Assembly: GCF_963678975.1 (NCBI RefSeq)
Contig: NC_089279.1
Location: forward strand, 29,110,525-29,174,524
Reading direction: 5' to 3'
DNA length: 64,000 bases
From: Dysidea avara
Lineage: Eukaryota > Porifera > Demospongiae > Dictyoceratida > Dysideidae
The translations under genes were made by a program, and so were the position numbers. Positions within the stretch are counted from its first letter, which is position 1, and each line of letters starts with the position of its first letter. The notes below the pieces were generated by a model. That model had not been told where the DNA came from and made no database searches. It was given only the letters and a program-made list of their open reading frames with translations. Positions 13,501-64,000 of the stretch are shown here, piece after piece.

Positions 13501-14767
13501 AAATAGATCGATACTCCCTAATAGAGCATTCACTGATTAAAATATTCCAAGATAATTGTAAGAAAGGGTGCTAACCTAGGAGAATAATGCGAGTATAATG
13601 AGAACACTGAAGAGCATAATGGGTGAAATTCTGAAAGCATTTTGGGCAAAAATTTGAGCATATTTGATTCAGGCTGACACACAACACACATTGTATTCAT
13701 GTATAACTGTACAAACAGTAGTCACTGATTTTATTTGACACAATATGATGGGATAATGGTGACTGCTATATTACAATGGACCTTATCCGCAATGACGTCA
13801 AAGCGCTAAAAGGCGGCCGATAGTGTGGACACTTTGTACAGGGGGGTATTGGGAGAGATGGCGGTTTGCTATGTTAACGTTCACATACTGCAGCAAGGGG
13901 CAAGGTGAGGCATACATACTTAATAATTTCAAGACAAATGTGCATGGTTTTGCGTCAATACCAAAACTTAAGTTTGGTTTCATCTGGGGGACTATTTCGC
14001 ATTGCCATATCACGCTAACTAGCCTCTTACCTTTATTATCCAATAGTTACATGTTGTGAAATCCGCAAACAAAGTTCATTTTAGTGATTACATACGAAAT
14101 TCCCACACTATACACGGCCATTTTGTCAATTATGATGTCATTGCGGATAAGGTCTATATGCCAGTTATAATGCTAACAATGCTTGCTCTAGAACGTTAGT
14201 TATGCTTTACCATTGTGACTATAATGTGAACATCACCATACAATGTAATGCAAGAGGTGCATGACATAACATGCAATATTCAATGTATGACAAAACTTGC
14301 CAAGTTCAAGGAGGGAAATTTTCATGGAAATCTGCCAATCTGCAGCTTATGCGGTGGAAATGTTTTGAATTATTTACATGTTATATTAGACAAGGAAATC
14401 ACTAGCGGCGAAATCAAGGTGGTAGTAACATATAATGATATCCAGCTTTTGGATGAAACCTATGATGCATGTGAACTTCTTGAGAAGTATGGTGATCAAT
14501 GTCCTATTTCTACAGGTATAGTATATGGTACGCAAAGTTTTCTGAAGTGTATTATAAATGTTTCTTTCCTTCTGTGTAAAGGTAATACAACTATGTCTAT
14601 AACTGTAGAGGTGCCTTCAGATCTTCCTGATGTGAGACAGCATATAAAACATTTATGGCTACATTCTTGTTGTTTCTTCACAGGGAAAATATGTTGGTAC
14701 AATGTATGGAACTGACCAGGATGACGATCCTATGATATGTGGCACAGTTGAATGTCAGGTGGAATAA
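10526..14767 (+). CDS. ML-domain secreted lipid-binding protein, copy 2 (ML2)
   Basis: Exons 10526-10637, 10692-10790, 14390-14515, 14582-14631, 14684-14767 (TAA) give a 156-residue protein. It has a signal peptide (MMKPVVFVLATFCLVLVSA), then an ML domain: SCTSDFSC, YDPDPPEKGKNVTITGSG, KEITSGEIKVVVTYNDIQLL, CELLEKYGDQCPIS, VPSDLP joined to GKYVGTMYGTDQDDDPMICG, ending ECQVE. Exon lengths 99, 126, 50 and 84 equal those of ML1, its closest paralogue. Six cysteines, two each in exons 1, 3 and 5, fit three disulfides. Likely role by family: binding and shuttling of phospholipid or sterol in secretory or extracellular compartments; ligand unknown. Intron 1 is only 54 bp and has no stop in frame. 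Tandem ATGs at 10526/10529 make the exact start uncertain by one residue. Confidence 0.86.
11688..11953. mobile_element. Foldback MITE, about 266 bp
   Basis: Inverted arms of about 100 bp (AATAGACGATATGCACACTC at left, GAGTGTGTATATCGTCTATT at right) surround a short centre. They lie in intron 2 of ML2. The target duplication is unresolved. Confidence 0.8.
11954..13306. other. Intron 2 of ML2, no gene recognised
   Basis: No coding exon or element is recognised. The ORFs here are short, AT-biased and lack domains. Confidence 0.5.
13307..13388. repeat. CA/TG-rich microsatellite
   Basis: An imperfect CACA/CGCA tract ends in a pure (AC)n run. An ORF at 13258-13452 (His/Thr-rich) is only the translation of this repeat. 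Confidence 0.9.
13779..14154. mobile_element. TIR element, family B copy 1
   Basis: Ends are GACCTTATCCGCAATGACGT and TCATTGCGGATAAGGTC. The same terminal family is at 17516-17912, and a partial end is at about 24787. It lies about 235 bp before exon 3 of ML2. No transposase is seen. Confidence 0.7.
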
Positions 14768-20900: not shown

Positions 20901-21722
20901 CCCTAGTACTGACACCATATACACCAAGTCAAAATTTGGACAAAACACTTGTTGGCATTATAAATCCTTTAAGCTGTGCATTAATTTTGCCCATTGGAAT
21001 GTCAGGTGACTAATTGTGAACATCACCATACAATGTATTGCAAGAGGTGCATGATATATGTTTACTTATGCATCGCTCAATGTATGACAATACATGTACT
21101 GGAAGGGATACACTGTCTTCCAAACTGTGCATGATAAATGATGAGGATGACCTCTTTGCCATTATCATGCAATTATTAATGTGGACTGGTTTATATATCA
21201 GAAGTCTATTTATCCATATATTTGTGACAAGCATTAGTAAAACTGCATCCTGTCAATGTAACGTACGTACAGTATACATGCTAAATGATATATTGAACCA
21301 CAGTGGTGGGAACGTTTTGAACTATTTACATGTTATATTAGACAAGGAAATCACTGGCGGCAAAGTCATGGTGTTGGTAAAGTACAACACTTATATCAAA
21401 CTTATAGATAAAACTTATGAAACATGTGAGTTTCTTGAGATGTTTGGAGAGCACTGTCCGGTTTCTCCAGGTACAGAAATTGTGGTATGCAAAATTTTCT
21501 GAAGTGTGCTAAATGTTTTTTTTTTCTGTCTGAAGGTCCTCACACTGTGGTTATAACTGATAAGGTCCCTTCAGATCTTCCTGGGGTGAGACAACATATC
21601 AAGCATGTATGACCACATTCATATTTATTGTTTCTTCACAGGGAAAATATAATGGTATTTTACATGGAACTGACCAGGATGACATGCCTATGATATGTGG
21701 CACATTTGTATGTTACGTTTAA
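17929..21722 (+). CDS. ML-domain secreted lipid-binding protein, copy 3 (ML3)
   Basis: Exons 17929-18037, 18086-18184, 21342-21470, 21536-21585, 21642-21722 (TAA) give a 155-residue protein. Signal peptide is MKVVFVLAAFCLVLVSS. The ML domain shows SCTIDFSC, FSPDPPQKGQNVTVTDTG, KEITGGKVMVLVKY, CEFLEMFGEHCPVS, VPSDLP joined to GKYNG, TDQDDMPMICGTFVCYV. Exon 3 is one codon longer than in ML1 and ML2, and an extra cysteine (DLTCSF) makes seven. The C-terminus is one residue shorter than that of ML1 and ML2. Intron 1 is only 48 bp, a multiple of three with no stop. Role by family: secreted lipid binding; ligand unknown. The upstream flank is a transposon, so expression may differ from the other copies. 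Confidence 0.84.
18835..19480 (+). repeat. Dispersed repeat, family C copy 1
   Basis: About 650 bp matches about 54690-55380 in reverse complement, with shared blocks such as CTCAGGGTTTAACTCA, GCCCAACTAGTTCAAAGATA, AGATGAATGATCTGTAAAA and GTCAGCCATTGAGCAGACCA. It lies in intron 2 of ML3. No terminal repeats or coding domain are recognised. Confidence 0.7.
19862..20110. repeat. Two-level foldback in intron 2 of ML3
   Basis: The inner arms, CTTGTTCAGTAGAAACCTCG (19946 on) and CGAGGTTTCTACTGAACAAG-like sequence ending at 20040, are about 34 bp with a loop of about 30 bases. Outer arms around TTGAGCTC and TTAACAAC extend the symmetry less perfectly. It probably is a decayed foldback element. Confidence 0.6.
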
Positions 21723-44468: not shown

Positions 44469-46682
44469 TTACATTTCTGAAACACTAAATGTAACATCTT
44501 TCCACTTCTTAAAAGTATCCCTCCCATCCTTTGTTACAAACACAAACTTGTCACAGCCAAGACATGGCAAAGCTCTACCCACTTTTGGCCAGACTGTTTC
44601 AACACCCCATGGATGATCACACTCATTACAATGAATTCTGTATTTCATTTCTGTCCCTCCTCTGACAAAAGGCTTTTCATGCTCTTTACGAGTGTACTTA
44701 CTGAAGATATCTTCAGAAATAACAACATGTTGTGTGTAAACACGGCGTAGATCTTTACCATGACACACAAAACTGTCACATGTGCCACATAGTATCTTAA
44801 TATCTTCAATTTTGTGCAACTTCTTCTGTTCTTCTGCAAGTTTCTCTTCCCTTTCTGCCTTATCAATACTGTCCTTTTGAATCATATGAAGCTTAGAAAT
44901 CCATTTCGATATTGGTTGCAGATTGTTTTCAATTGCAATGGTAACAAGATGGTTCTTTTCTTCATTTTGTATTTCTTGAAACTCTTTAGGGGTTCCCTTA
45001 CCGATGATTGCATAGCACTTGCTATCCATGGCACGGGCACGACCTTTTGACTGAATAAGAGCAATTTCATTAGTGACATGTTGATAGCGAATGATAAGAT
45101 TGCAAGCAGGAATGTCAATTCCTTCTTCCAGAACTGACGTAGCTACCAGGAGGTTTAATTTACCCTCACGAAAATTCTTGATAACAGCATTTTGTTCTTC
45201 CTGTGTCATACCTTTGAATTCATGCTTGCCATGCCCAGTAACAACTCCAGCTAGAACACAGCCATTTAATTCAGGTTGTCTTAGGATCCACTCTTTCATT
45301 TTCACGGCATTGTCAACTTCAGTAACAAATATGATGGCTCTGTTATCTGCTGAACTATGGAAGTTCTCAAAAATCAATTCCTTTAATTTGTCCAATTTAG
45401 GATTGGTAGTGCTTGTAACCTGTTGCACTTCTTGATGAAATGTTTCAAGCATTTCTTGTAGTTGTGCTTCAACCTCGGTAGCTTTCTCCTTCCTGGGTGA
45501 CCTCAATTTATTACGCATGACTGACAGCGAGTCTTTGTATTCATAATCAAAGTAAAACTGAAGGATTTTGGTGTAGTGTTGGAGATGCTCAATTACAGCA
45601 CGAACATTTCTTTCTTTTTCTGCATCTGATCTCAATTTGGATTCACGTAACAGAGCTGAGAGATGGTTCATATAGCCTTGTTCACTGAAGCCCTGGGCAG
45701 CTAATTTTCCTGTAACTTTCTCTATAACACTGTCCAACTTTTTAATGTATTTTATCAACAAGGTTTGAAAATCATCACTGATCCTTCGACCTGGAATTGG
45801 AACTACTTTATATTGTGTCTTAGTAGTAAAACGCCACAGCTCAGCTAAATTCTCATTAACAGTAATGTATCCAGCATCAGCATCCATTAGAGCACCAAGT
45901 GTCATTAAATGATCAATGGTTTTGTTAAAATCAGGCTTACGACTGTCTCCAGCTCCTGGTGAAGCAGTTAATCCAACTATCTGTGGCAGTTGAGTCTCTC
46001 CTTTTCTTAACTTGACCTTGAGATATTCAATCATGATGGATGCATAAGAAGACCGACCTTTACAGTAATGGCATTCGTCAAAAACTATCAGTGAAATATC
46101 CTTCAGCAACACATTTTTGGTGTGAAGATCATTCTTCAACAGGTCAGCTGTACACACAACTATATCATGTGTGCTCAGTAGGGTAGACAAGGAAAATGAA
46201 TTGCTACTCTCTCCAGTAACATACATAACTTTGGTTCCCTTAATGCGATGCTTTATTTCTTCATATTGCTGGCTAGCTAATGGAATTTTTGTGACAAGGT
46301 AAACCACCTTCCCTTTCCTGCCATAACGGTTCAAATTTTTACAAATGATCATACAAGCAACTAAGGTTTTTCCTGTACCAGTTGGGGCTACTATGATGCA
46401 GTTATTTCCTTGTAATCCTGGAGTGGCCAATTCTGTCTGGTACTGCCGAATGATTACATTATCTTCCAGATAAATTTCAAAATTAATTGGGTTTGCTAGC
46501 AATTCAGAAAACTCTACAACAACAAAAATATTCTACACATTACAATACAAATCATGAAATACCTGTTTCATCACTTTTTAGCTTTTTTGGTGGACTACTT
46601 GGTTCTTGATCCAGGCACAAGTTTAGCGATGACAAAATGTCTTCCTTTATTTGTAACACTCTTTTTGTACCAGAGGATGAAC
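44469..46682 (-). CDS. RIG-I-like receptor helicase (3' exons)
   Basis: The last two exons are 46682-46563 (linker) and 46513-44469 (stop at 44469). Counting from the Met at 46502: Q-region YQTEL, motif I APTGTGKT (39-46), motif II DECH (142-145), motif III TASPG, a helical insert (about 225-390) as in RIG-I/MDA5/LGP2, motif IV AIIFV, motif V ATSVLEEGIDIP (454-465), motif VI QSKGRARA. The C-terminal domain has Zn cysteines CGTC (572-575) and CNEC (625-628), DHPWGV and KKWKDVTF, the RIG-I regulatory-domain pattern. The family binds viral double-stranded or 5'-triphosphate RNA in the cytosol and signals through N-terminal modules. Splice phase is 1 at both linker ends. The linker holds a basic PPKKLK. 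The whole helicase plus C-terminal domain in one exon is notable. The first exon was not found. Confidence 0.93.
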
Positions 46683-48896
46683 CTGCCAATGTAAGCATTA
46701 CAGAAATAATAACATGTAAGTATTTCAAACTATACATGTGTATGTTTGTGATATATATGTGTGTACATGAGTACGCTTGCAGACCAAAACAAAACAAAAA
46801 CTGTAAGAAAGAGCTTGACTTTAAAACAACAGACAATGTTTACAATGTAAAACCGAAGTGATCAAACAATGCCTGTATGGCCAAAAATATCACCCAAAAA
46901 CCAGCTTCACAATACCATCCTAGCGCCTTGGCAGTATTGGTTAGGTATAACCAAGCCCAAAAGTGCCTTCATTGTTCAACTATCCCTCTAGGGACCTGCA
47001 GGGAGGCAACGAGTTAGCCTGTGGCACAGGGAGTCAGAAACATGAACCTGAAAACTATGCTGAATGCAGAAAAAATTCCAGATCAGGTGGTGACTTGATC
47101 CACAGACAGCTTCAGTACAACCCTAAATGCTCCCAATAGATTGCTACATAACTTTAAATTCTCTACTGACTGACTGACTAACTGCCTGCCTACCTGATGT
47201 TTTCAGACAAGTGTACAGTAACTCAATAACGGCTAAGGCTATGGGCTTGATTCTTTCTCTGTTCGATGTCGCTTCAGCCGACAGGTGCCTTTTGGTATAC
47301 CACAGTGGGTTACCGATGCACACATCATGGACTTACCTTTGTCCTCCTTTGCGTCCCATTTCTTTTTGCTGACAGCCCAAAACGTCAATTCATGGTAGTG
47401 TGATGGCCTCCCTATGTTTATAACAGGAATCGTCTGTATTTTCCGTGGTGACTGGATTGATTGCAGAGGCACTTCTCATATTGTTCTTTATTTGTAATGC
47501 TGTGACATAGCTGAAAATGAAGTGTAATAGCCACTTCATTTTGAGTAAGTAATTGGTAGTTGGGGCGCACGTTCATTTGAAAACATTACCTTTGGCACCA
47601 TCTGTTCTTTTGACGTGGCATGAGCGGGTTCACCAGTCATAATAATGTTACAAAAAAGTAAACAAACAAACAAACAAGTATAAGGAAAATTTAAGAATTA
47701 TAAGTTCGATTAGGGATCATAGAAAAAAAGTAGGGACTGGTATAGACTGAATTAGGGATTAAATGTCCAATAGTATATCTGCAGGTGTAGGTGATCTCCC
47801 TCCCTTGTTTCCCAAAAAATTTCTATGATCCCTAATCTTCCTTATACTTTAAAGTTACACAGGTGCATGGATATCATCACTTTTACTTTGACAAAGGAAA
47901 CCACTGGGACATCACCCTGTGGTTAGAGTGATATAATGATATAGCCCTGACCACAAATGCCTTTGATACTGAGATACTACAAAGCATCAATTTCCCTTTG
48001 ATTATAGTTTTACATTGTTGGTTGGATATGATGATAATACATTTAGTTGGTGCCATTTGGTTACTAGTTGATGATGTTGGTTCCTGTTTATCATTTACTG
48101 ATGTGGGTTGCAGAGATGTCTCTAGCCTAATATTGGCTTCTAAGTTGGTCAAAATGTACGTACTAGCTGCTGAATCCTGTATGCTGAGTTTGATATCTGT
48201 TTTAGGACCTTGAGTTATACTGACCATGGATGATATAATTTTTGGTTGCTAATCCTGCTGGTTGGTAAAGTTTGCAACGGAGTTGCAATGTATAGCAATT
48301 TTTACTGTCCAAATATCCTGAACTAAATCATTCTGGATATGCTATGGATATCTGTCTTTCCAGATATCCTGCAGATAGTGACATCATCACTTATAAAATA
48401 TGACATATATTTACCATGAATTCACTTGCTATACTAATATTATCAGAAGCAAGCATATTATTTGTACAACGATATTACTTTAAATTATTAGCAACTATCC
48501 TGATGGTTTCAAATTACTATCTGGATATTGAAATACTATCCGGATATCTGGACAATATGGATATCTGTTTCAGCCCTAGTATGCAGCCACACTAATTCTC
48601 CCTTCTAATGTGGTTTCCCATGAATTTTTCTGTGACAAAGTTCCTTTCTGATGTTGATAGTTGGAATTGGCTCGCACTAAGTCAAAGTCCTCTGTCATTC
48701 ATTTACGGAGCAGTTTGGCAATTCACATGTTAAGGTAGTGTTGGGTCCAGGCTCAGGTCTGCCAGTTCCATACGAAAGCTTTTGTATGACATGTTGAATG
48801 AAACATTAATTTCACTATCTCACAGCCCATGGGCCTCCCCATTGTCACCTAGTTAATGAGGTGACAAGAAAAGATTCCTATATCCAATTCCTAGAG
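46683..48896. other. Intron of the RIG-I-like gene, right part
   Basis: At 47225-47500 lies dispersed repeat family D copy 2 (see 29110-29430). At 48290-48600 there is a region rich in GGATATC repeats ending GTTTCAGCCCTAGTA, possibly one end of a hAT element. The ORFs at 47883-48227 and 47998-48213 are antisense to each other and have no domain. Confidence 0.4.
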
Positions 48897-49564
48897 TTAA
48901 TGCTTTGGCTGGTTCACTGTGCTTGACCTTAAGACTAGCAGGTAAGGGTAACTGAGGAGCATTGGGAGAAAATGGCTTTCTGTGCAAAGGAATATTTGTT
49001 CGAATTTCCTTTGATTTCTGCAATGCCTCAACCACCTTTCAATGCTTAATGAATTCAGTGCTAGCCTTCTTTTTGAAATTGAGAACAAAAACTCACACAT
49101 AATGGTAGTGGGTACTACACACAGTGGGTGGAGGCAATCCCAATCCCTAACCAAGAGGTTATACCACTGTTGCTGAAAAGTTAGTAGATGAGATATCCTT
49201 AAGATTCTCTGCAGCTCCACATAGACCAGAGGAGACACCAGAAGTATGCAAACTACTATGTTATTCATAAAACAAGAACAGCCCAATACCATCCCCAAAG
49301 CGACGACCTTGTGGAAAGGTTTTATCATACAATGCTGAACATGCTTACAGCATGTGCTAGAAAAGCACATCCAGAAATAGCTGTATAGCATACAATTCCA
49401 GTTTCCAAGCCTCAACAGGATTTGCACCATTTTATCTGTTAGGACTGCCAACAAAGCTACCAGTTGACATCATTTACCTTTCCTCTGTGTGGTAAGGGTA
49501 CCCTCCTAGCTGACTGATAAATGGGCAGTGCACTGCCACCATTTTACACCACAATAACAAATTC

Positions 49565-49950
49565 ACCAGTGGGATGTGCCTTTTGGGGTCCGATGAGTGT
49601 GTGCCCTCTGCACCTTGTCCTTCAATCAGGCTGCTCTTCGTCCTTCTTCATGAAATGAAACCATATAAGGTGTTGATTTTCCCTATCAATACTTTCCTTG
49701 AGCACCATTTAGATTCTGCAATATTTAGGCGCTTACGCTCCGTAGATAACTATAACTTCATGATAGTTCAATACCACACCTATTGATGCGATCTTGGTTG
49801 ATTAATCGTAATGATCGAGCACCGAGACCACACCTCATAACTTAATCACGATGACACATCCCCTGGTAGGTGAGGCTGACTTGATATACTCTAATACAGC
49901 AGTCACCCTAATAGAACAGTCACACTTGTATAGCTGTATGGTATAAAAAC
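49565..49950 (-). repeat. Dispersed repeat next to MITE A (copy 2)
   Basis: Reverse complement of much of 2626-3215: CAGCCTGATTGAAGGACAAG, CAGAGGGCACACACTC, CCCCAAAAGGCACATCCCAC. It holds two CTCTAATA-type motifs at 49884-49922, next to the MITE as in copy 1. Confidence 0.6.
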
Positions 49951-49956
49951 CAAACA

Positions 49957-50790
49957 AACTAGTATATTAAAAATTAATTTTAAAATGAAGTAGGGATCCA
50001 AGCAGACATGGGGCCAAGTACATGAGTACTTATACTTAAGTACACTTAAGTACAGATTTGAAAGTACTTGTACTTTACTTAAATACTTTCTTAAATTCCC
50101 CAATGTACTTGTACTTATACTCAAGTACTTTGCTAAGTACTTGTATGTACTTGAGTACTTAAAGTACTTGTAAGTACTGCAAACATTGTACATAGTTTGT
50201 ACACAGTGGGTATACAATGAGAATATCAAAATTGTATGAAGGTACAGTTTACAACTTCTTGCGATTCTTCTACTGCCTTCCCAAACCTTACTGTGTATCA
50301 TGTTGCCACGATTAACGATGTCGCCAATGCTGTTGTTCAAGTCAGTGCGTTTTAAGAGTTTAGGAGAGAGAATAGTTGACAAAAACCAACCCCCTAGGCA
50401 CACTTACATACTACAATACAATGAATACAGCATATATTTTACTACAGCAAAATGTACTTGTACTTTACTTAAGTACTCTCTTGATTGCTGCTGGAGTACT
50501 TGTACTTGTACTTGGAAAATTCAAAAGTACTTGTACTTTACTTAAGTACTTTTAAATGTACTTGGCCCCATGTCTGGATCCAAGCGATGAAAAGTAGTGA
50601 AACAAGAGATGAATGATGGTATTACAGCATAGCTCGGTGGTACTTTGGCATTTAACAAAATGATTGTTATAACATGCCAATGTAGGTAGGGATTTTCCCA
50701 CCAAGCTATGCTGTAATACCATCATTCATCTCTTTTTTCACTACTTTTTATTGCTTGGATCCCTACTTCATTTTTAAATTAATATACTAT
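49957..50790. mobile_element. Foldback MITE, family A copy 2, interrupted
   Basis: Outer arms (AACTAGTATATTAAAAATTA at left; ATTGCTTGGATCCCTACTTC to TAATATACTA at right) match the MITE at 2343-2622. The left arm is split by a hAT element (50003-50576); the arm resumes at 50577 with GATCCAAGC. Confidence 0.85.
50003..50576. mobile_element. hAT non-autonomous element nested in MITE A
   Basis: Termini CAGACATGGGGCCAAGTAC and GTACTTGGCCCCATGTCTG are perfect inverted repeats with an exact 8-bp duplication GATCCAAG (49995-50002 and 50577-50584). The interior is dominated by repeats of AAGTACTTGTACTT. 574 bp, no transposase. Confidence 0.95.
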
Positions 50791-52017
50791 TACAATGTAA
50801 CTTGCTTATTTGATAGTAATTTTTGGCAGGCGATAAATGAAAAAAGAAACACATGGTACGTGAAGTTTTAATAAGCCACATGATACATGTATGTATATAG
50901 TGAAGAATGTTGAATATATAAGGCTCCCCTGCCTTGCCCCATTTTCTGTACATTATGTAAGCTTAAGGTTACGGTATAGTCACGGGCAATCATTCAAAAT
51001 TTTGAATACCTATCGATACTTTTTGAGAAGCCCATAAAACCAGTCTAGCAGCGTGAAAAGTTTTAAATGAAGATGAAGCCCTTCATATTTAATGTTTTTA
51101 TGTAGCTACAGTGTAGTTTGAGGCAGGTGGAACACTACAATTTGTTGTAGTAACACAAGTAAGCCGTAACCTTAAACAAACTTATTGACAATCAGTTTAC
51201 ATGCATAAACACATGTGTGCATGTATGTTGAGTGTCTGCACTACACACGTTATTACAGCTACACCTGATGAGCCTTGTAAAGGACTGTTAACTCCTCCAC
51301 TTAATACAGGTGACCGTAGTTGATACTCAGCTGCTATACAAGTAAAAATACATACACCTAGCAAAATTACACATGACACGTACAGATTGACAGCATATTA
51401 ATATTTTGCATGTGGCCATCTTCAATACTAACATATCCTATGCACAGAGCTGTACATACATTTTAAAAGAGACTATAGCTGTACAACTCAACTGTGACAG
51501 TTTATAGTATGCACCTCGCTAAATGCTGCAGTACATATTTGCATGGGAAGATCAAAGTAAAGAGCAGTTCTACAGCTGCCATATACGACAGTTTATGACA
51601 CTGGAGTTCTACATCACGTAGTTATAGAACAGCACATGATGGAAACCTGGGTACGTAACCATGAGGGGAGGTAAGATAAAAGAATTGCCGTAAAGGTAAA
51701 TCTCAGCATGAAGATGATGGATTTCAAAACTATTCTGTACATAAGTTTTGAATTTTATCTACACATGTTGCTGTTTTTTTCAGGTTGAATCTCTATAACA
51801 CTTAAGGCATCACCTAGCTTACGCTATATGAGAAATAAAGCAATCAAAGAGTGGTCTTGAGAAAAAACATCACTTGATTTCACCTCATGTTATACATTCT
51901 AACCCACTCTTTTGCATGCTATATTTCATGTGTAGCACCTGCGGCAATGCTTTAACTCTTACACACATATAGTTCAATAAAATTGAAATAGTTGCAAAGT
52001 ATATATATATATATTTA
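50791..52017. other. Gene-free stretch in the RIG-I-like intron
   Basis: No exon, ORF with a domain, or element with clear ends is seen. Confidence 0.5.
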
Positions 52018-52304
52018 ATCCAAAACAGCCAAGCTGTGAAAAGATGTGAAATCTAAGGTGGCGGCCAAGAAATGGCTGTGATGGTAGGTTAATGGTAAAA
52101 AATTTAATAACAACAATTCAGGTGAATTTGGTGTGGTGCCATTTGGTCTTGGCACAAATTCACCTGAATTGTCGTTATTAAAATTTTTACCATTAACCTA
52201 CCATCACAGCCATTTCTTGGCCGCCACCTTGGATTTCACATCTTTTTTCACCATATAGCCTTTTGAGAGCCGCACTCTTTTTTTGCAGCTTGGCTGTTTT
52301 GGAT
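52018..52304. mobile_element. Tc1/mariner-like MITE, 287 bp
   Basis: Ends ATCCAAAACAGCCAAGCTG and CAGCTTGGCTGTTTTGGAT have flanking TA dinucleotides (52016-52017, 52305-52306). Long arms include GGCGGCCAAGAAATGGCTGT. A TA duplication fits Tc1/mariner. A partial relative is at about 8385-8520. Confidence 0.8.
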
Positions 52305-52429
52305 TAGATTTACTTCTTTTTGTATTTGTATCAGGCTTTGGAGCTTTTTAAACCTATCTTTTTTTCTTTACCACAGGAAGAAGAAAAAGATGAAGAAGAA
52401 AAAGATGAAGAAGTTTTTAAATACTACAG

Positions 52430-53310
52430 ATAACTTGTTTGCAGCTGATCTCTCTACTGGGTGACTTGAAATGTAGCTGAACTCTCCACAGGGTGATTTC
52501 ATTCTATCTGATCTCTTTATAGGGTTAATTTGTCTGGCTTACCTCTCTAATGGGTGATTTGTTTTTGTAGCTGACCTCTACAGGTGACTGGTTTCTAGCT
52601 GATCTCTCTACAGGGTGACTTGTTTGTAGCTGAACTATCTGCAGGGTGATTTGTTCGTAGCTGAACTCTCTACAGGATGATCCTTCTAGCTGATCTCTCT
52701 ACAGGATGACTTGTTTGTAGCTAAACTATCTGCAGGGCAATTTGTTTGTACGTAGCTGAACTCTGATCCTTCTAGCTGATCTGTCTACAAGATGACTTGT
52801 TTCTAGCTGAACTCTAGCTCTACAGGGTGATTTGTTAGTAGCTGAATTCTCTACAGGGTGATTTGTTTGCAGCTGAACTCTCTACATGATGGTTTCTTTG
52901 TAGTTGAACTCTCTACAAGGTAACTTCTTCTAGTTGATCTTTCTACAGGGCGATTTGTTTGTAGCTGAAATCTCTACAGGATGATTTGTTTGCAGCTGAA
53001 CTCTCTACATGGTTAGCTGAACTCTCTACAAGGTGACTTCTTCTAGTTGAACTCTCTACAGGGTGATCTTTTCATAGCTGAACTCTCTACAGGGTGATTT
53101 GTTTGCAGCTGAACTCTCTACATGATGGTTTCTTTGTAGCTGAACTCTTTACAAGGTAACTTCTTCTCGCTGATCTCTCTACAGGGTAATTTGTTTGCAG
53201 CTGAACTCTCTACATGATGGTTTCTTTGTAGCTGAACTCTCTGCAAGGTGAATTGCTTGTAGCTGAACTGTCTACAATATTAACTGGTTGCTGCTGAACT
53301 CCCTACAGCA
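52430..53310 (+). repeat. Minisatellite, about 31-bp unit, roughly 25-30 copies
   Basis: Variable units around TAGCTGAACTCTCTACAGGG and TGATTTGTTTG repeat for about 880 bp. Variants alternate GAACTC/GATCTC and CAGGGTGA/CATGATGG/CAAGGTGA, suggesting higher-order pairs. No single frame is open throughout. Confidence 0.9.
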
Positions 53311-53339
53311 TAACTTGCAATGTAATAGAAATCTATAAT

Positions 53340-54190
53340 GGAGTCAGTCATGAACTAGTTGAATGCTCTATTAGGGTGACTGTTCTATTAGAGTATCTCG
53401 ATCTCGCATTTGCTACACGGAGTTGGCTTTTGAATCATATAACTCAGTGGTTTGTACTCCAATTGTTTTGTACTACTGCAAGGAATTTCTACGATGACTA
53501 TTCCAGCTACATACCAATTTTCAGCTCACTGCTCTAAGCGGTTTGCCTGGTAGGTGTGCAAATTATTGGTATTTTTATTCACGAATCTCGATCGGGAAAT
53601 TGTTACATACCTTCGGTTTCATGTCATATCTCCATGATCTTTATTTTGACTGCTTTCAAACCACCAAAAGGCACTCCTATAATGGTTGATCTATGCAAAA
53701 AAACGATTTTCAACTCATTCCATGATGCGGTTTACCCTGTAGGCATGACAACAAATTGATCTTGTTTTATGCGAATAATTGGTCATAAATCCTCAACCAT
53801 TCAACGGATTTGCACCAAATTTGATATTAGGATTCGCCTTTGCACTCCCTTTCTGTGTGCCAAATTTCAAGGAGATCAGAGTACGCATTTACATTTTATA
53901 GCAATTTGTGCAAGTGTGCGAAAACATGAAGAAGAAAAAAAAATGAAGAAAAAGAACCGAAACTGTGGCTGCACGTAACTGGGAAATGACTTGAGTGATT
54001 TCCTTCAAATTTGGAATGTGAACTTCCCTAGCTGGGGGGCAACTCTGCAGCAAATTTAGTTCCAGTTGGATAAGGTATCACCGAGATACAAAGGTGTGAA
54101 AATGACGTTTTCTTTCTTCCTGTCAATATACCCACGGTGTGGTGTACCGGCTTCTTGGGCCGCACGACACACTATCGTGTGTCTTCATAT
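53340..54190 (+). repeat. Unclassified stretch, probably part of a mobile unit with the minisatellite
   Basis: It starts with two CTATTAGRGT motifs (53368-53402). Phrases such as CCAAATTTGATATTAGGATT and TGCCAAATTTCAAGGAGATC, and an AAGAAGAAAAAAAAATGAAG tract like the one at 52378, bracket the minisatellite. It has the look of a repetitive element but no ends are defined. Confidence 0.35.
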
Positions 54191-54689
54191 ACTTACTACA
54201 TTATATATATATATATATACTCACTACATTATACCTGCTAAACATGGTGTGTCTTTCTTCATGTTATGTACACCTTCCTTTGGCTGCACTTGTGATGGTG
54301 ACAACTCTCCTAATACACAACATGAGATAAATGTATGTTGTAAATAGATTGATAAAACACAACCTGTCAAGTCCTTAGCAGAATCAGTGACATCTTTTTG
54401 TAGAGAGTCTGAACGTTGCATTTTATCCTCTATAAGAATACAACATGAAAATCTACTCTAATAAAAAATATGCATTTAATTTATTACTGCACGGGCAGAC
54501 AGCAATTGCTAATATTCCCAGGTGGGTGATTATACTCCAAGGGAAATCATACTATATATACAATACAAACATTAGACTACTTGTATGAATGAAACAGTTT
54601 ATGTAATAGTTATACCATGGCTACGAGGGATTTTGCTGATATATATATATACTCAATGTGGCCCGAGGGGTAAGGGTGTATATATCAGC

Positions 54690-55380
54690 AAAATCCTGAC
54701 ACAGTCGTGGTATAGTGATATATATCACTCAGGATACACTCACCTGATAGGCAAAAGAACTACAGATAACTCACCCCATTTGTTTTATACACTAGCATAC
54801 GATGATTGATTGTGGTTTCAGTAACATGAACAAATAGCTCTCAGAACGTTATTCCTACGTCATTACGATCCAACACATGCCAGAAACGTTTGACTATGAT
54901 TGGTTTTTGGGGTGTAAAGGATCTATGTTTTTAATACTACATTAAACCTTCACTATTGTGGCAGTAACTATAAGTTAATACATTAAGTTAAGTATTTAGG
55001 ACTATAAGCTACTCACTTAGTTGTCATATTCTCCTTGTTTTGTGGTCTGCTCAATGGCTGACATGCTCCCCATGCAGTGGGTAGAAATATGTATCCATGC
55101 ATCGTCCAAGCGATCATTTTACAGATCATTCATCTTAGAATATAGTTTAGTTACTGTCAAATAATCTAAACTTAACAACTACACTGAACCTCACCTAATG
55201 TGTAAACTAAAACCCACAATAAAATGATCCATGTCGCTCAATAAAATCAGTCAAAGCGTTTCGTATCTTTGAACTAGTTGGGCATCAAAGCCATGAGCAA
55301 ACCGCATTCCCATGATATTGTCCTGGTAATATCTAGATATTGTCCAGTGAATATGTGAGTTAAACCCTGAGTGACGACGC
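54690..55380 (-). repeat. Dispersed repeat, family C copy 2
   Basis: Reverse-complement partner of 18835-19480. Both copies also share the adjoining GATATATATCACT/CTGATAGG segment. Confidence 0.7.
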
Positions 55381-55392
55381 CTTTACTGCATA

Positions 55393-55581
55393 CGTAAAAA
55401 TTTTCGAGGTGGAAATTTTTCGTAGACTTCATAGATCACCTTTCACCTATAAAAATTTTCCTTTGAACCCAGCAATTATGCATATAATTAGCTATTGTGA
55501 CTGCCTAGTTACGAAAAGTTTCCTCCGAATCTTGCCATAGTCACTCATCTACGAAACTTTTTCACCTCGAAACTTTTTACG
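55393..55581. mobile_element. TA-flanked MITE, 189 bp
   Basis: CGTAAAAATTTTCGAGGTGG at left is inverted as CACCTCGAAACTTTTTACG at right, with TA on both sides. Internal AATTTTTCGTAG / CTACGAAACTTT extend the arms. Confidence 0.8.
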
Positions 55582-56941
55582 TATACAGTACGCTGAAGTG
55601 ATACATTCTTTTGTCGTCATGTATCACTTCTTTGTCACAGAAATTGGCACCATAAAATCATTATCAATGATTGAGTAAGTGTATGACATATTAAAAAAAT
55701 TTGATTCTAAAATGTTTGTATCAATAACACGGTCATGAATTAACCACAGTGAAGCATGATCACTACCAACCACTAGCTGTCTCCAACAGCAAACTTGTGG
55801 ACATATGAACAAAATACGCCTGAGACTGTGGAAAATATGTAAATGTAAAGGGTGCATTATTTACCACTGAGTAAACTTTTAACAGAGTTTGTCAATTGAC
55901 TTGAAAAGCATGTATTGCTACTATTTAAAAATGAAAGTATTGCCTATACAGATTGCATCCACACTGAAAACTTAAGTTTTTATTTATTTCTTTCGTGGTT
56001 GAGTGGTGCAATTGTTGATTCAAATGGTGGAACTGGTAGAGGGTTGCTAGTCCCACCATTCAAGCCCTTTTATAATTGTCAATTACACATCATAACCACC
56101 CCTTCTGAATGGGTCTGGTGAAATACCCATACCTTTTTGTCTCAAGAAAGAATAAACTTATGGCTATGATAATTCAATGACAGATATTGTCATTCCAACT
56201 AGAGGTCGATCGTAGCTACGGATTCCTACTTTTTGGTTTAGACAACATCTGTTTTTCTGTTTCCAAGACCTGAAATATGTTTTGGAAATAATCTGACAAA
56301 TCCTGTTATATGGTCGGACATACTCAATAGTACTGTTCAGAGAAATGGTCAGAAAATGGCAGATGTCTGACCATAATTTCAAGCTCTATGAATTCCCATT
56401 GTAGTGGTATATGTTGTTTGCATAATGCAATTATTGTAAAGCTGTTGCTACAAGGTACAGCAGCTATTAACTAACAATTTACAAATATATCTATGTAAGT
56501 GAGCTAGAACTCCAACCATGACTATTTGTTCGGTAGAGTCACCACAGTTCATCAACAAATTACCTGCATATTGAGCACGCTGTACAACTTAGAGCCACCA
56601 GCTCTCCAGCAGTATTGAAGCTAACAATCTGTATATTATCAGAACAGCTCTAGTTATGATAGCACAGTATAGTGCTCAAGCTCATATCACCTCTTGTGTA
56701 TTTATTAAACACCAATCAGATTTTGGTGTTTCTTGGCGCAAAACAGGTACATAGGCATTTCACAAGACACTTTAGGAAGGGACACTAATAATTCCTAGTG
56801 AATATTATGAAGGAAACAATCTAGAGGACAAAACTATATAGGGACATATTGCTTCTAAAAATTACACTTTATTGATCAAAAATTTTACTGCACGTACTTC
56901 ATAATCTTCATTGTAACATTCCACATATATTAGCACTTTAC
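55582..56941. other. Gene-free stretch downstream of the Death-domain exon
   Basis: No exon or element can be supported. Confidence 0.45.
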
Positions 56942-57217
56942 CTGATTTTAATTTAAGACGAAGGGTTCGTGCAAGTTCATGTAAGTGTAAGGAAGGAGCT
57001 TCAAGTGCTTCTATTAGAATTTTCCAGCTTGCATTTAGATCACTTCTACGCCAATATTTAAACATTTCTGTGCAGCACTCCTTTCTATTGGAAGGCTTGT
57101 TTGCCTGGATTTCATCCAGCTTGTCTTCCCGCAAATCCAATTGTACTCCCAAGTCATACCAGTCAGCCATAACAGCTTCCCTCACATGATTGTTCAAATC
57201 CTTAAGTTTAGGACAAT
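56942..57217 (-). CDS. Death-domain exon, probable N-terminal module of the RIG-I-like receptor
   Basis: A 276-bp exon with acceptor TTGTATTCTAG before 57217 and donor CAG/GTAAAG after 56942, phase 1 at both ends. The 91 complete codons read CPKLKDLNNHV, ADWYDLGVQLDLREDKLDEI, KECCTEMFKYWRRSD, ASWKILIEALEAPSLHLHEL. This is the six-helix Death fold pattern with its conserved W-x2-L and W-x2-L-x2-AL positions. Death domains form signalling assemblies with like domains. The phase equals that of the linker exon at 46682 (split glycine codon), so direct splicing gives an open frame into the helicase. The intervening 10.3 kb has no competing exon I can recognise. It could instead belong to a separate gene. 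A start codon is missing, so at least one more 5' exon is expected. Confidence 0.7.
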
Positions 57218-58646
57218 CTAGAATACAAAAGTAACTAATTGTATATCCATACCAGGGGCAGATCCAGGCTTTGGAAAGGGGGTACACCATAACCAGGGTA
57301 GTAGGTATTAGTTAAATAAATGGGGTCTTAGAGGAGATGGGGGTGCACGTGGGTGGGCACACGCTAAAAGTAAGGATCATGTATATACTGTCAGATATGA
57401 GATTGTTGTATAGAATGACATGCAAAGGACCAAGTGCATTTAATTTCCTATCAGGCTAAATAGCTAGCTAAGTGTGCCCATTATTTGGTGCTGCAGATGT
57501 AAGTCTTCATATTCAGCAATAACTGTGGAGGAATCTTAATCAGTGTTACATGATTACTGTTCTATTAGAGTATCTTGATCTTGTTTGTATTTGTGTGTGT
57601 GTGTGTGTGTGTTGTGGGAAAGCATCTGCTTCTCTTGAATCCGCCACAGTATGTAGCCTAGATTACCGTAAACAACAAAAGTTGGCATGACTTAAGTTTA
57701 GAAATTTTGGCGAATCAACTGAAGGAAATTTGCCTATTAGCTACTTCATTTTGGCTGTGTGGTTAATTCGTCAAACTTCTATCTATCAACCTGCTTCACA
57801 TGCTGATTCACCAAACTCAAATCGTACCAAACTTTCATTGTTTATGGAGCTATCTGAGACTGTAAACATTTTAGCTATGGCTACTACTGCTCTGGCTATC
57901 AGCACTTGAGGCTTCTAGGGAAAGTAGTCTCCCACTAACCAGGTTACATTACAGATATTACTCACGTTACCAATGATCTCCATCTATACCTGGGAAATTG
58001 TTAACAGTTAGTCTGAGATTGAATTTGAGGACATTTTTGACAGGTTTTGCGTAACAAGCTTAGCCTAAGTACAAATGTACCTAGTCGAAATGTACTTGAA
58101 TCAGTTTTTAGAGGGGGATTTCCCAGCCTAACAATGGCTTGTGCTCAAATAGGAAAAGAGAGAGAAAAACCACCATTATGATGTTTAAAACACACAATTA
58201 CAATGCCTCTGATTTACTATTAAATCTAGATCTATTGAGAAGGTGTTAGTATAATTTCCACTGATAAACGCCATTTCAACGCGAGTTTCAACACACCCGC
58301 CACTCGCGCATGCCATTACAATACATATTGGGGGGCTATTAAATTACAGTGCATACCATTTAGACTAGCATTAATGCCGTCACCAGCCCCATCCATTTGT
58401 TCCACTAGCTCTCGATCTTCTATCCCTTTAGCAAACGTCGATCAACCCAAACCGCAAAAGCACCTAATTTGGGCATTAATTGTCACGTGCATCTATTTAT
58501 AAACTCGAACCCCTCCAGGTTAGTTGAACTCTGTCACGAGCTTGCAGTTGTAGCTAGACTATTATATCAATAGAATTTCGACAAGTACCGAGTGTACATG
58601 TCCTGCCTGGATCTGCCACATTGGTCCTCGGAGAATTTATGCTTTA
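57218..58646. other. Upstream of the Death-domain exon
   Basis: CAGGGGCAGATCCAGGCTTT at 57255 looks like a hAT terminus with no partner found. A (GT)n tract lies at about 57591-57612, and one CTATTAGAGTATCTTGAT motif at 57552-57572. The missing first exon of the RIG-I-like gene could be here, but I cannot identify it. Confidence 0.4.
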
Positions 58647-59885
58647 GGGGGCATCTCCAAACTGATTTTGGTACGCTTAACGTCATCATGACGTTAAGGG
58701 GGGAGGGGGGTTCAGGCCATGACATTATTATTATATTATTATATTTATTACTGTGCAGCAATCAAAAGATTATAACGCACAGGTGTGATCATAAAAGTTA
58801 CTTAAGTTATTACAAAACTCATTAGGGGTAGAGGAATTAATTACATCAGCAGGGAGTTGGTTCCATAATTTGATGGTTGATGGGAAAAAGGAAAATTTGT
58901 ATGCATCAATTAGAGTCATTGGTTGGTGATAGTAGCCACTCCTTAAACTTGAAAGTTTAGGGGTAAGATCATCTGTAGGCACAATCAAATATCCGTTAAT
59001 TATTTTGTAAAAAGTACTTAATTTAGCTTGGGTTCTTCTTGCCTGTAACAATGGTAGATTAAGAGAAGACAACATGTTAGTAACACTTGAATATCTTGAA
59101 AAGTCATTAAAGCAAAATCTAGCAGCAGTTCTCTGGATTGATTCTAGCTTGTTTATATTCAACAAGGTGTGGGGATCCCAAGCAGACGCAGCATATTCAA
59201 TGATTGGACGAACCATAATCTTGAAACAATTACATTTAATGTGAGTAGGACATTCGCGTAAATTACGATACAAAAAGTTGTTTACTTGTTTGGCCTTGTT
59301 GGTAATCCTTTGGACATGTTCATTCCATGAAAGGTTGCTTGAAATCGTTACGCCAAGGTATTTGGTATGAGCAACTTGGGCAATAGGTACAGCTTCAATG
59401 CAGTAATTAAAGACAATGGGGTTTTTCTTATTGGTAACTCTCAAGAATTCACATTTGCTGGGGTTAAACTCCATCTGCCAAAGACGTGCCCATTGTGCGA
59501 GAGCATCTAGGTCTTCTTGTAATGCATGACAATCAGATTCAGATTTAATGTAGGAGTAGAGTAATACATCATCGGCATACAACTTTACTTTAGAGCGTAT
59601 TCGAGAAGGTAAATCATTTATATACAATAGAAAGAGAAGTGGGGCTAGCACTGCATTAATTTTTATTAAAGCAGTTATAGTGGAAACATCTAGGAATAGA
59701 GAAAGTGATGTGATTAAGCAGCCGTATACTGCTTGTAGACTATGTTTTCAGGTAAAGAATATAACGTTTTGTGCTTCTATTGCCAAAGCATTGTTTTCAT
59801 AGTGTGACGTTAAGGAAGGAGGGGGGGTCTGAAGTTAGCGTCATTATGACGTTAAGCGTACCAAAATCAGTTTGGAGATTCCCCC
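58647..59885. mobile_element. Harbinger-like MITE with a LINE inside
   Basis: Inverted termini GGGGGCATCTCCAAACTGAT and ATCAGTTTGGAGATTCCCCC extend about 50 bp (GGTACGCTTAACGTCAT) and are flanked by TTA on both sides (58644-58646, 59886-59888). A 3-bp TTA/TAA duplication is characteristic of PIF/Harbinger. Removing the LINE leaves about 320 bp. Confidence 0.8.
58742..59657 (-). mobile_element. 5'-truncated LINE with intact 293-codon reverse transcriptase C-terminus
   Basis: An open frame from 59651 to 58770 reads LAPLLFLLYINDLPSRIRSK, YADDVLL (catalytic YADD), then MEFNPSKCEFL, YLGVTISSNLSW, VRPIIEYAASAWDPHT, LESIQRTAARF and FPSTIKLWNQLP. This is the CR1/L2/Jockey-like order with the thumb and C-terminal region complete. 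It lacks the endonuclease and the first reverse-transcriptase blocks. A (TAATAA)-type tail lies at 58720-58755. The open frame suggests a recent insertion compared with the LINE at 31119-32885. Confidence 0.88.
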
Positions 59886-60028
59886 TTAGTTATCATGATT
59901 TTGCTGCTGAAGACTGACAGTTATTCTTATTCTTATATTCTTATCCTCTTTACCAGTTAGGCACTGGAGGGCGTACACAGAAGGCAGAGCCTGTATGAGG
60001 TGTTTACGGTTGTGCAAACATATATAGC

Positions 60029-61224
60029 TATAGTGCACCAAGGTATGTACTTGATCAAATGTGATTTTTTACATTTTGTGCTGCAACAATGGAATCAATC
60101 AATTAAGTAATCTACAAATTTTGCCATGCAAGTAGCTACTTCAAGTAAATGTTGGTTGCTATGGAAAATCATTTCAATCAGACGCTAATTGAATTTAACT
60201 GTATTTAGAGTTTTTTTGTATCTACTTTATGGTCTTACTTCAAATCTTTAAAATCTTGATATCCATGGGTAACTCAGTTTTCAAAACCTTAACAAATCTT
60301 TCAGAGCAAATTGTGGAATTTGTCTATAATTTAGACTTTATATTAAAAAAGGTTTGTTTTAGACAATTTTGTAAGAACGGAACTCCTCCCACAAATAAAA
60401 ATCTTATTGATACCAATGTGTGCACAATAAGTGAGGCTAAATTTCCAATATCCTTTTAGAGTACTGAAGAAGCAGAAGTGAAAAAAAAAAAAATTACACC
60501 AAAAATAGTCTAATTAATGCACATTATCAATAATCTTTGGTGAGGCAATTATGCCTGATACTTGCCCACTTCAACCAAGGATAGCAAAAGTTCACAGCTA
60601 TAAACACATTTGTTTTATAAAAGCCTTAGTGCCCTATACAAATATGTATGGTGAACCCAAGGGGTAGCTAACGTGTTGGGACTCTCGTACACCATCTGAG
60701 AAATCCTTCATTAAGTATTTAGAAATCCCAAATCTTGAACCACATACAAAATAGGCTATTCTCATTTCCATCCATTTATGAGTTCAATTATGGCCGCCAC
60801 TTTATAGCTACAACAATTATTCAAGTTGACAGTGCAAAGTACACCTGTGTCTCTTCTGAAGTTCCTCTGATCCCCTCTCAGCTACTCTCTTAGGTGTTTC
60901 CTGCACAAGCATTAGCAAAAAGTGTTATAATAATAAAAACTCAGGTAAAACATCATGATAAAAATCGAAATTAGAATTATAAAATATCTTTTAAATACTT
61001 AAATATTGGGACTCTTGTACACCATGTTGGGTTTTTGCGTGGGTGTTGACTACCCCTTGGGTAAACCCACAAAACACCCATTGGGAAGCCTTAAAATTGT
61101 TTTTGTAGGGTGGATTTTAGGGGATATTTCAGTCTTATTCATGCAGTTTTGGTCCATAGATGATAATTATGTAATAATTGTAGTAAAATTTCGTTTACCC
61201 CTGTTATAGCCTTGGTGCACTATA
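60029..61224. mobile_element. Possible TIR element, about 1.2 kb
   Basis: TATAGTGCACCAAGG at 60029 is inverted as CCTTGGTGCACTATA ending at 61224. A second pair (GTGAACCCAAGGGGTAG near 60650, CTACCCCTTGGGTAAACCC near 61050) is also inverted, which suggests nested or layered elements. No coding domain. Confidence 0.45.
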
Positions 61225-61689
61225 ACAGTATAAAACTAAACTTAGAACAGCTAGTATAACTATACTGATAACTATCAGCACTTCTAAATTACATGGGAGT
61301 AACAAGAATAAACTAGCTAGCATTAACACTGAAAATTGAGTCATAGTGGACAAGGCGGAACAACATTATAGCTAAGTGCAGTAATTATTGCCATCAAAGT
61401 AAAGATGGACCACAAGTGTTCCTTTAATGTTGAGAGATCAAGATTCATTGTTGGTGGTACGATAGCTACAGTAATAAACGTGGTAGGCTAGCTACACTGT
61501 ACTGTAGACGATTGACATTATTTTGTGTGGTTGTGGTGAGCTAATCTCAAATGAGATGAGGATCTTTTAGAACTGCTACTGCTAAAATGGATTGATCCAT
61601 TTGGTGATGTTGATGGATTCTTAATGGACTCAATTAAAAAAAAAACCGAAAAAAAAAAAAAAACAGCAAGTCATTTGTTTTCAAGTAGT

Positions 61690-61990
61690 TAAACATGAGA
61701 GGGAGCATCAAGTATAGAAATGTACTTTGTATAGCTCTCCACTGGACTATTTCTAGTCCTGAATAAAGTTTGGTCGAGAACAGTACATGAGCTGCAAGCA
61801 CACCAAAGAAATATAACTGTTGAATGAAGCTTAGACCTAGCTGTATAAGCCTTGGATACTAGTGGGCAGACCAAAGAGAGATCAGTATGGTTATCATGGC
61901 ACCAAGGTCTTTAACTGAGTCTCTTTGCTCAATATGGTCACTGTTAAGGAAGTACTGAGCTGTGCTTTTAGTGTTGCATCAAATACATAA
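61690..61990 (-). mobile_element. Decayed LINE reverse-transcriptase fragment
   Basis: The minus strand reads STAQYFLNSDHIEQRDSVKD, then LGAMI, SLWSAH and, in shifted frames, SKAYTARSKLHS. This resembles the (VKDLGV...LSFSxHI..) part of CR1/I-like LINEs. Frameshifts and stops are present. Confidence 0.55.
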
Positions 61991-63212
61991 TGGAGCAGTC
62001 AAATGACTTTAATTGCATATTATGTACCAATTGCTGGCATTTTATAATATTGAAGGCAGGTGAGGAGGCCTACCTTGGGGGTACTCCAGATAGCAGGTAG
62101 AACTCCTATATTCTGGGCTGCCTTACAGATTCCTGATCATGCATGTATACATGTCTGATCTGCGGGGGTGGCCTGGACACCACTGACTAAACAATCCTAT
62201 ACTGACATGCCTATAAGTGTCTCCAAGATCTGCTTATGTTAATGTTGGAATGCTTATTTTAAATAATTGTCTTGTATTGTTTCTTATAATATTGTATAGC
62301 TATATGTACACGTGTTTGTGCATATCATTTGCTATTATTATCAGTTCTGCTCTGTCTTGGCATACCTGTTTGCTTCATCGATCACAACAGGTATATATGA
62401 ATTATATAATACCTATGTGATTTACGTATTTCAATTTATCAGTGTTACCATTGCAACTGTGGTACTGAGTAGTGCTGAAATATATTTTGACTATTTGATT
62501 AGCATGACATGATTACTTTTGATTTGTTAGCATATTTGAATATTTGTTAGCACTGCAGAAAACTGTAATCAGATGGATGAAGCCAACTCAGAAGCTTAAG
62601 AACAAAGTGACATGTTCATACTGAATTTAGAAGATAAAAATAGCTCTTATGCTTTGCCTTATACTGCCTAACAAGAATTTCAGTGCTTAATCATGCTTAA
62701 AGAATAACCAGTTGCTTTGTTCACAAATTATATAGAATAGCTATATTATACTTGTTTCAGTACTAGTACTGTGTAATACTTTAAGATGTTCCTAGAACTC
62801 TGTTGCAGAACACTCATGGTCAAGGCAATGGATTCGAAAGACCCAAACTCCTCAGAAAAAAAAAAATTATACAAAATTAGAATTTTCCTAGTCAATTACA
62901 AGATGAAAACAAGGGGAGTGGTGATCATCATGACAGGGGGGGGGGGATCGTGCTAATATCCAATTACAGTAAATTAAGTAACGTTGTCTCTATGTCAAAT
63001 AGATAGGGTAGAGAATTCAAATTATAGCCAATCACATGCACTTTGAGTAGTACCTTCAGTAGGAAAATAGACTCACCATCAACGAAGAGCTTTATAGGAT
63101 GATGATATGTATTGATCAAGAGTACAAAAAAAAGTATAGCATTGTGCCATGAATGGAGAGAAAAACTATAGACAACAAAAGTCAATTGGTATTATTATTA
63201 TTGTCCCTTGAA
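61991..63212. other. 3' flank of ML6
   Basis: At 63060-63130 the conserved 3'-flank block of the ML unit appears in reverse (GACTCACCATCAACGAAGAG, TTGATCAAGAGTAC). A poly-G tract lies at about 62936-62946. No gene is seen. Confidence 0.5.
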
Positions 63213-64000
63213 TTAAACGTGACATCTAACTGTGCCGCATATCATAGAATTATCATCCTGATCAGTGCCATCCATTGTACTCTTATACGTCCCCTATGTG
63301 AAGAAACAACATGAAAATAGCCATACATTGTTTGATACGCTGTCTCACCCCAGGAAGTTCTGAAGGAACCTCAAAAGTTTCAGAAACAATCATAGGACCT
63401 TTAAACAGAAGGGAAAACAAACTAAATTTATCACATTTTAGAAAATTTCATATACCGTAGAGTCGGGTTGTTAAGCGCATGCATCTATTAAGCGCATACA
63501 AATTTCTTGTAATTAACCATGGATGATAAGCGCACATGACCAAATGCGACGATAAAGCAACACGCAGCAAGAAACGACAAAAAGAGCTGGAAGTACTGAA
63601 AAATTAATGTCTCCACAATTGCTTACGTCTCCCTTGAGGTCTCCCTTCGCTATTTATACAGCAAATCACCCATCTGGATAGTGATAATCTTGTTTATCAC
63701 GAAGGATTTCATTCAGAAATGGAGTCAAATATTCTTACACACTGGTGTGGCGACTATTAACTACTCTCACAACGAGGTGATACCGTGTTACACTCACCAC
63801 AATTATTCATTAGGCATATGCACCTAACAGATAGTACGATTTTTACAAAAAGTTTTCTCCGAAAATTATAAGCGCATGCGCTTAACAACCCGACTTTACG
63901 GTACCATAATTGTTATATTGTACTGTACATATACTGTACCTGGAACAATTGGACAGGTGTGGCCATACTTCAAAGCAAGTTCACAAGCATCATAGGTTTC
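63213..64000 (-). CDS. ML-domain protein, copy 6 (ML6), 3' part, cut by window edge
   Basis: Exons on the minus strand: 64000-63940 (partial exon 3: ETYDACELALKYGHTCPIVP), 63398-63349 (exon 4: PMIVSETFEVPSELPG) and 63293-63213 (exon 5: GTYKSTMDGTDQDDNSMICG, then TVRCHV and stop). Lengths (50 and 81), phases and the two cysteine pairs match ML3, its closest relative in the final exon length. Exons 1, 2 and the start of exon 3 lie outside the window. The orientation is opposite to ML1-ML5, so either an inversion placed it here or the array is split around the RIG-I-like gene. Confidence 0.85.
63455..63901. mobile_element. TA-flanked MITE, 447 bp, in an ML6 intron
   Basis: CCGTAGAGTCGGGTTGTTAA at left is inverted as TTAACAACCCGACTTTACGG at right, with TA on both sides. 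GCGCATGC repeats lie just inside. This fits Tc1/mariner or pogo. Confidence 0.85.

Follow-up and report, generated by a model that had tools for sequence, protein, structure and literature searches.

The 64,000-nucleotide stretch of Dysidea avara DNA described here, termed the window (NC_089279.1, positions 29,110,525 to 29,174,524; contig C8 of the 550.8 Mb in 108 contigs that were searched), carries on its minus strand a gene model in which a Death-domain exon and a short linker exon are placed upstream of a long exon encoding a RIG-I-like receptor (RLR) helicase. The arrangement of the exons and domains is given in Table 1. An open frame of 687 amino acids at 44469-46532 (-) carries the whole of the helicase core together with the RIG-I C-terminal regulatory domain (RD), and the DECH motif of the helicase is readable directly in the translation. 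The solved-structure matches extend over nearly the full length of this helicase-RD part, with the best of each being LGP2 at 317 bits, RIG-I at 297 bits and MDA5 at 286 bits. In the match to LGP2 the cysteine pairs CGTC and CNEC of the window RD are aligned with CVNC and CSEC, and these pairs, predicted here from the translation, are presumably zinc-binding. Judged by the presence of both the helicase core and the RD the long exon is an RLR.

The Death exon matches the Pfam Death profile with 34.9 bits (cut-off 22.6, E 1.7e-8), is also recovered by a whole-genome Death search at C8:29167521-29167703 and has FADD as its best PDB sequence match (E 0.0011). The acceptors of the three exons (TTTGTATTCTAG, ACATTGGCAG and GTTGTTGTAG) all end in AG and the two donors (GTAAAGTG and GTATTTCA) both begin with GT, all joins are in phase 1, and the spliced frame runs for 813 amino acids from the Death exon to the stop codon with no internal stop. 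The initial annotation had placed a Death module upstream of the helicase and in phase with it, and the profile score, intact frames, splice sites and phases found here bear this out, with its junctions at 57217, 56942 and 46682 being right to the base. A tandem array with a unit of ~31 bases is located at 52433-53276, inside the proposed intron between the Death and linker exons.

Table 1. Exons, introns and encoded domains of the window gene (positions within the window)
Feature	Position	Strand	Description
Death-domain exon	56942..57217	(-)	276 bases, phase 1 both ends; Pfam Death; splice sites
Inferred Death/linker intron	46683..56941	(-)	10,259 bases; splice inferred
Linker exon	46563..46682	(-)	120 bases, phase 1 both ends
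Intron linker/helicase exon	46514..46562	(-)	49 bases
Helicase-RD exon	44469..46513	(-)	single exon: DECH-box helicase, helical insert, helicase C, RIG-I C-terminal domain; stop codon at end
DEAD/DECH helicase domain	45957..46445	(-)	Pfam DEAD 95.4 bits, over cut-off
RIG-I_C (PF18119) helical part	45423..45791	(-)	Pfam 26.3 bits, cut-off 23.2
Helicase_C domain	45036..45398	(-)	Pfam 72.5 bits, over cut-off
RIG-I C-terminal regulatory domain, two CxxC pairs	44475..44798	(-)	Pfam RIG-I_C-RD 88.9 bits, over cut-off

The proposed join of the Death exon to the linker across 10.3 kb is well supported because the closest full-length paralogue, termed R13 (locus L013, 60% identical to the window gene), and four broken copies keep a Death module just upstream of the helicase, and because the window Death, once its self-match is set aside, scores highest against the Death of R13 (81.7 bits, with 150 of the 925 candidates scored). 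R13 has the layout Death-linker-linker-helicase within 2.86 kb; every junction is in phase 1, and its Death and helicase exons are 535 bases apart. In R13 as in the window gene, the Death exon opens at the same residue, immediately after the acceptor. Broken Death-RLR copies containing stops occupy C8:28.52-28.91 Mb (-), between R13 and the window gene. In the four copies at 28.52, 28.58, 28.64 and 28.69 Mb, a same-strand helicase piece follows downstream of the Death piece after 479-556 bases. A fifth copy near 28.85 Mb has a Death-helicase gap of 1.8 kb, and in the copy near 28.91 Mb the order of Death and helicase is reversed. With ~925 first-look Death candidates in the 550.8 Mb, ~0.009 Death domains would be expected by chance on one strand of 10,259 bases, and 12 further close Death loci, each covered over 2.5-2.8 kb, contain no helicase at E 0.001. 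The ratio of nonsynonymous to synonymous change (NG86 dN/dS) is under 1 in the helicase (0.31/2.75) as well as in the Death domain (0.53/1.71), at dS values close to or beyond saturation, and the Death domain appears to be under rough purifying constraint.

A series of observations weighs against the join and the reading built on it. The join is drawn from sequence alone, in a gene model that lacks the start-codon exon, and the window Death/linker intron, at 10.3 kb, is far longer than the three short Death-to-helicase introns of R13. The broken copies are R13-like (67-79% in Death) and hence are not independent of it, and the reverse search with the R13 Death ranks the window Death 11th, with the R13 self-match and five broken C8 copies counted. 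The window linker is not significantly similar to those of R13, with 824/2000 and 167/2000 shuffles reaching the score. A Death tree (22 rows, with L002, L004 and L005 translated on the wrong strand) does not resolve the window and R13 Deaths and was discarded, and the single-sequence structure model of the Death is weak, its VIA-align list containing, by titles, no death-fold protein. The adaptor step of the mechanism proposed below is taken by analogy. An AATAAA is present by eye ~70 bases past the Death donor, so that a Death-only ending is possible.

Such an ending would accord with the Death exon being a separate gene, or giving a Death-only transcript, and with the window RLR being LGP2-like, with its start in the linker exon or the helicase exon and with no signalling domain. 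Besides the 10.3 kb gap and the basis of the join, this is favored by a reading that stays open past the Death donor to a stop close to the AATAAA, by Death exons being very common in the genome, as the 925 first-look candidates illustrate, and by the LGP2-type domain proteins listed for the sponge Amphimedon in the text of PMC8260672. However, the phases match at every window junction and Death is placed tightly upstream of the helicase in R13 and the four broken copies, and a separate Death gene is considered unlikely. The preferred reading, with a probability of about 0.78, is that the three exons form one gene encoding a Death-linker-helicase-RD RLR of the published A1 type, which would act through RNA-driven clustering of its Death domains and an adaptor.

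RIG-I C-terminal matches in the genome number eight, with six in intact long frames of 683-708 amino acids (the window gene, L010, L011, L013/R13, L014 and L015) and two in fragments (L012 and L016). L012 (C10:9887555-9887866) is an isolated RIG-I C-terminal domain that shares 98% identity with its L010 counterpart, with no helicase in the surrounding stretch examined. All six intact RLRs encode the helicase-RD part in a single unbroken frame, and this fits an exchange of N termini on a shared core. The tree, drawn without an outgroup root, pairs the window gene with R13 and groups the other four intact RLRs together, at 36-39% identity to the window gene and R13. No N-terminal domain is found at E 0.1 in the ~7.75, 8.8 and 7.8 kb upstream of L010, L014 and L015, respectively, and an upstream exon common to the three was not made out. 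A Death match located 44 kb upstream of L010 is separated from it by long open frames of another nature and was not used. The likely helicase-exon acceptors of L010, L014 and L015 are in phase 1, whereas that of the L011 model is in phase 0, and the splice phase thus varies inside this second RLR group.

In a noticeable difference from the window gene, L011 (C8:36532468-36536869; L024:4468-8869) has a CARD-like N terminus followed by a Thr/Ser-rich linker, the helicase and the RD. The CARD match first appeared in a scan of the upstream region, in a read-through frame, with 17.1 bits and E 0.0055. The four-exon model starts with the ATG at 36532468, has exons at 36532468-36532704, 36532762-36532843 and 36532900-36533300 and a helicase exon from 36534773, and is open over 939 amino acids with phases 0, 1 and 0. 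The N-terminal 107 amino acids (one residue fewer in the final model) match Pfam CARD with 23.2 bits (E 7.3e-5), just below the cut-off of 23.9, and no Pfam family other than CARD reaches E 0.01 for this region. The PDB search with the L011 CARD does not confirm it, with avidin as the best row (E 0.02) and the Caspase-9 CARD appearing only at E 0.75 to 0.81. The N terminus is for this text called CARD-like rather than CARD.

The presence of this N terminus bears on a further explanation of the window gene, in which another domain, for example a divergent CARD, lies undetected in the 10.3 kb intron or farther upstream and the Death exon is skipped or added. CARD-like exons do exist on an RLR of this genome, the start exon of the window gene is missing from the model, and the Pfam scan misses divergent exons, as illustrated by the Death domain going undetected in three of six control loci at E 0.001 (phmmer detects it in all six). 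The three-frame Pfam scan of the Death-to-linker interval at 46900-56859 (-), of moderate sensitivity, nevertheless gave no domain at E 0.1, and the equally moderate scan upstream of the Death exon at 57200-64000 (-) gave a reverse transcriptase piece but no CARD or any other domain. Moreover, a genome-wide search with the first L011 CARD exon yields nothing beyond that exon itself at E 0.1, and an undetected domain of this kind is considered very improbable. Two N-terminal CARDs as in vertebrate RIG-I and MDA5 are likewise not seen upstream in the window by a scan that can miss divergent exons, and a phmmer search with the window Death finds no second Death among window frames of at least 30 amino acids. 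The reverse transcriptase piece is positioned at 58773-59747 (-), upstream of the Death exon.

The layout of the window gene can be compared with those of published RLRs. Amphimedon queenslandica has two A1-type RLRs with the architecture Death-DEXDc-HELICc-RD according to the text of PMC8998645. Compared by domain order only, the window gene resembles these, with an N-terminal Death, the helicase core and the RIG-I C-terminal domain in a non-vertebrate early animal, and as a gene model it would fit an A1-type Death-RLR whose layout is kept in R13 and the broken copies. The Death-domain RLR proposed in the initial annotation is well founded as a gene, with R13 and four broken copies behind it, but as an architecture it is not new, having already been reported from a sponge (PMC8998645). 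In Amphimedon only the two A1 RLRs are described there, whereas the genome examined here has two intact Death-type RLRs, one CARD-like RLR and three RLRs without a recognised N-terminal domain. Two RLRs are also given for Amphimedon in PMC9505182, where the text does not state their architecture, and sponge RLRs serve as the outgroup in PMC8476169. The terms RIG-I and RLR are absent from the main text of the Dysidea avara genome paper (PMC12909245).

In vertebrates, RIG-I and MDA5 carry a pair of N-terminal CARDs and use MAVS for signalling (PMC9505182). The window gene shares with them the DECH helicase, the helical insert and the C-terminal RNA-binding-type domain with two CxxC pairs, as predicted from the translation, and differs in that the nearest N-terminal exon encodes a Death domain. 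The description of Death in place of CARDs holds for the window gene and R13 but not for the whole genome, as the N terminus of L011 is CARD-like. LGP2, the best solved-structure match of the window helicase-RD part, is without N-terminal CARDs (PMC9505182), and an LGP2 with a Death domain is not described in that text; the upstream Death is the difference of the window gene. The cnidarian C-type RLR has one CARD (PMC8998645), and the layout of L011, with one CARD-like domain, linker, helicase and RD, resembles it, whereas the window gene has Death instead. In lophotrochozoans, Death, CARD, DED, IG, SAM and CASc N termini occur on related RLRs and are explained by domain grafting (PMC8998645), and a change of N terminus between paralogues is thus itself a known process. 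Several N-terminal types on related RLRs are found here as in lophotrochozoans, whereas only Death-type RLRs were assigned to Porifera in the text of the same study. In a literature search of article text, with figures and supplements outside it, no sponge RLR carrying a CARD was found described.

Accounts differ on how RNA sensing first became coupled to signalling in animals, sponge RLRs having been called either Death-type (PMC8998645) or LGP2-like (PMC8260672). With its intact genes for Death-RLRs and its tandem array of broken copies, the genome examined here is a further one that supports the Death type. That Death-type RLRs occur together with a CARD-like one in a single genome is a stronger lead than the Death layout, and the presence of the CARD-like RLR alongside the Death-RLRs makes the question of which N terminus came first testable. 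The genome seems to hold a Death-RLR clade and a second clade with a CARD-like RLR. Evenly balanced at present is the fuller proposal of two RLR arms in one early-animal genome, in which the Death module of a Death clade (the window gene and R13) would also be used by a Death-NACHT receptor, and at least L011 of a second clade would have a single CARD-like domain. Should this be true, the link of CARD to RLRs would reach down to sponges or have arisen there separately, and Death would not simply be an ancestral precursor later replaced by CARD.

RIG-I, MDA5 and LGP2 bind double-stranded RNA through the helicase and C-terminal domain and assemble on the RNA with ATP. By comparison with these receptors, the window helicase and RD would bind viral double-stranded RNA and assemble with ATP, bringing the N-terminal Death domains together, and the clustered Death domains would seed an assembly with the Death domains of an adaptor. 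A receptor of the same layout could instead be mainly a Dicer/RNAi helper, with Death serving for self-assembly only, and the odds of this overlap with those of the preferred reading. Nematode RLRs do act with Dicer and without CARDs (PMC8476169), but they have no N-terminal CARD at all, whereas the window gene has a Death under rough purifying constraint, and a helper role is regarded as decidedly unlikely. Under the preferred signalling reading the window RLR would be coupled to an adaptor system different from that of vertebrate RLRs, as the initial annotation had suggested. Tentatively, the first guess for the adaptor is a FADD-like protein leading to DED caspases, with an NLR-shared or RIPK/IRAK-like Death partner as the next guess.

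The genome search for DED gives 22 matches, 17 of them over the cut-off, and 21 of the 22 fall in one stretch at C9:3.20-3.50 Mb, with some frames of up to 600 amino acids. The remaining match at C10:13523111 scores 31.3 bits, under the cut-off, and has one stop in frame. Downstream of this weak DED match, at a distance of 3.9 kb and on the same strand (C10:13523111-13527480 (+)), is the top-scoring Pfam Death match of the genome search, whose closest solved relatives are RIPK1 and then FADD. The DED and Death pair on C10 is a candidate for a FADD-like protein, no more. The possible NLR connection is illustrated by L045, the closest match of the R13 Death outside R13 and the five C8 copies, in which a Death module of the same subfamily is in one frame with NACHT in place of the helicase, and RLRs and NLRs may on this account share Death partners. 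NACHT is within reach of Death in one of the six Death loci examined (L045).

Elsewhere in the window, the Rfam scan gives nothing at gathering score. A frame at 14230-14712, with no Pfam match, resembles by eye the ML-domain (NPC2-like) frames that are repeated on the plus strand at 6985-7380 (25.2 bits, over the cut-off) and 21020-21499 (17.9 bits, under the cut-off).

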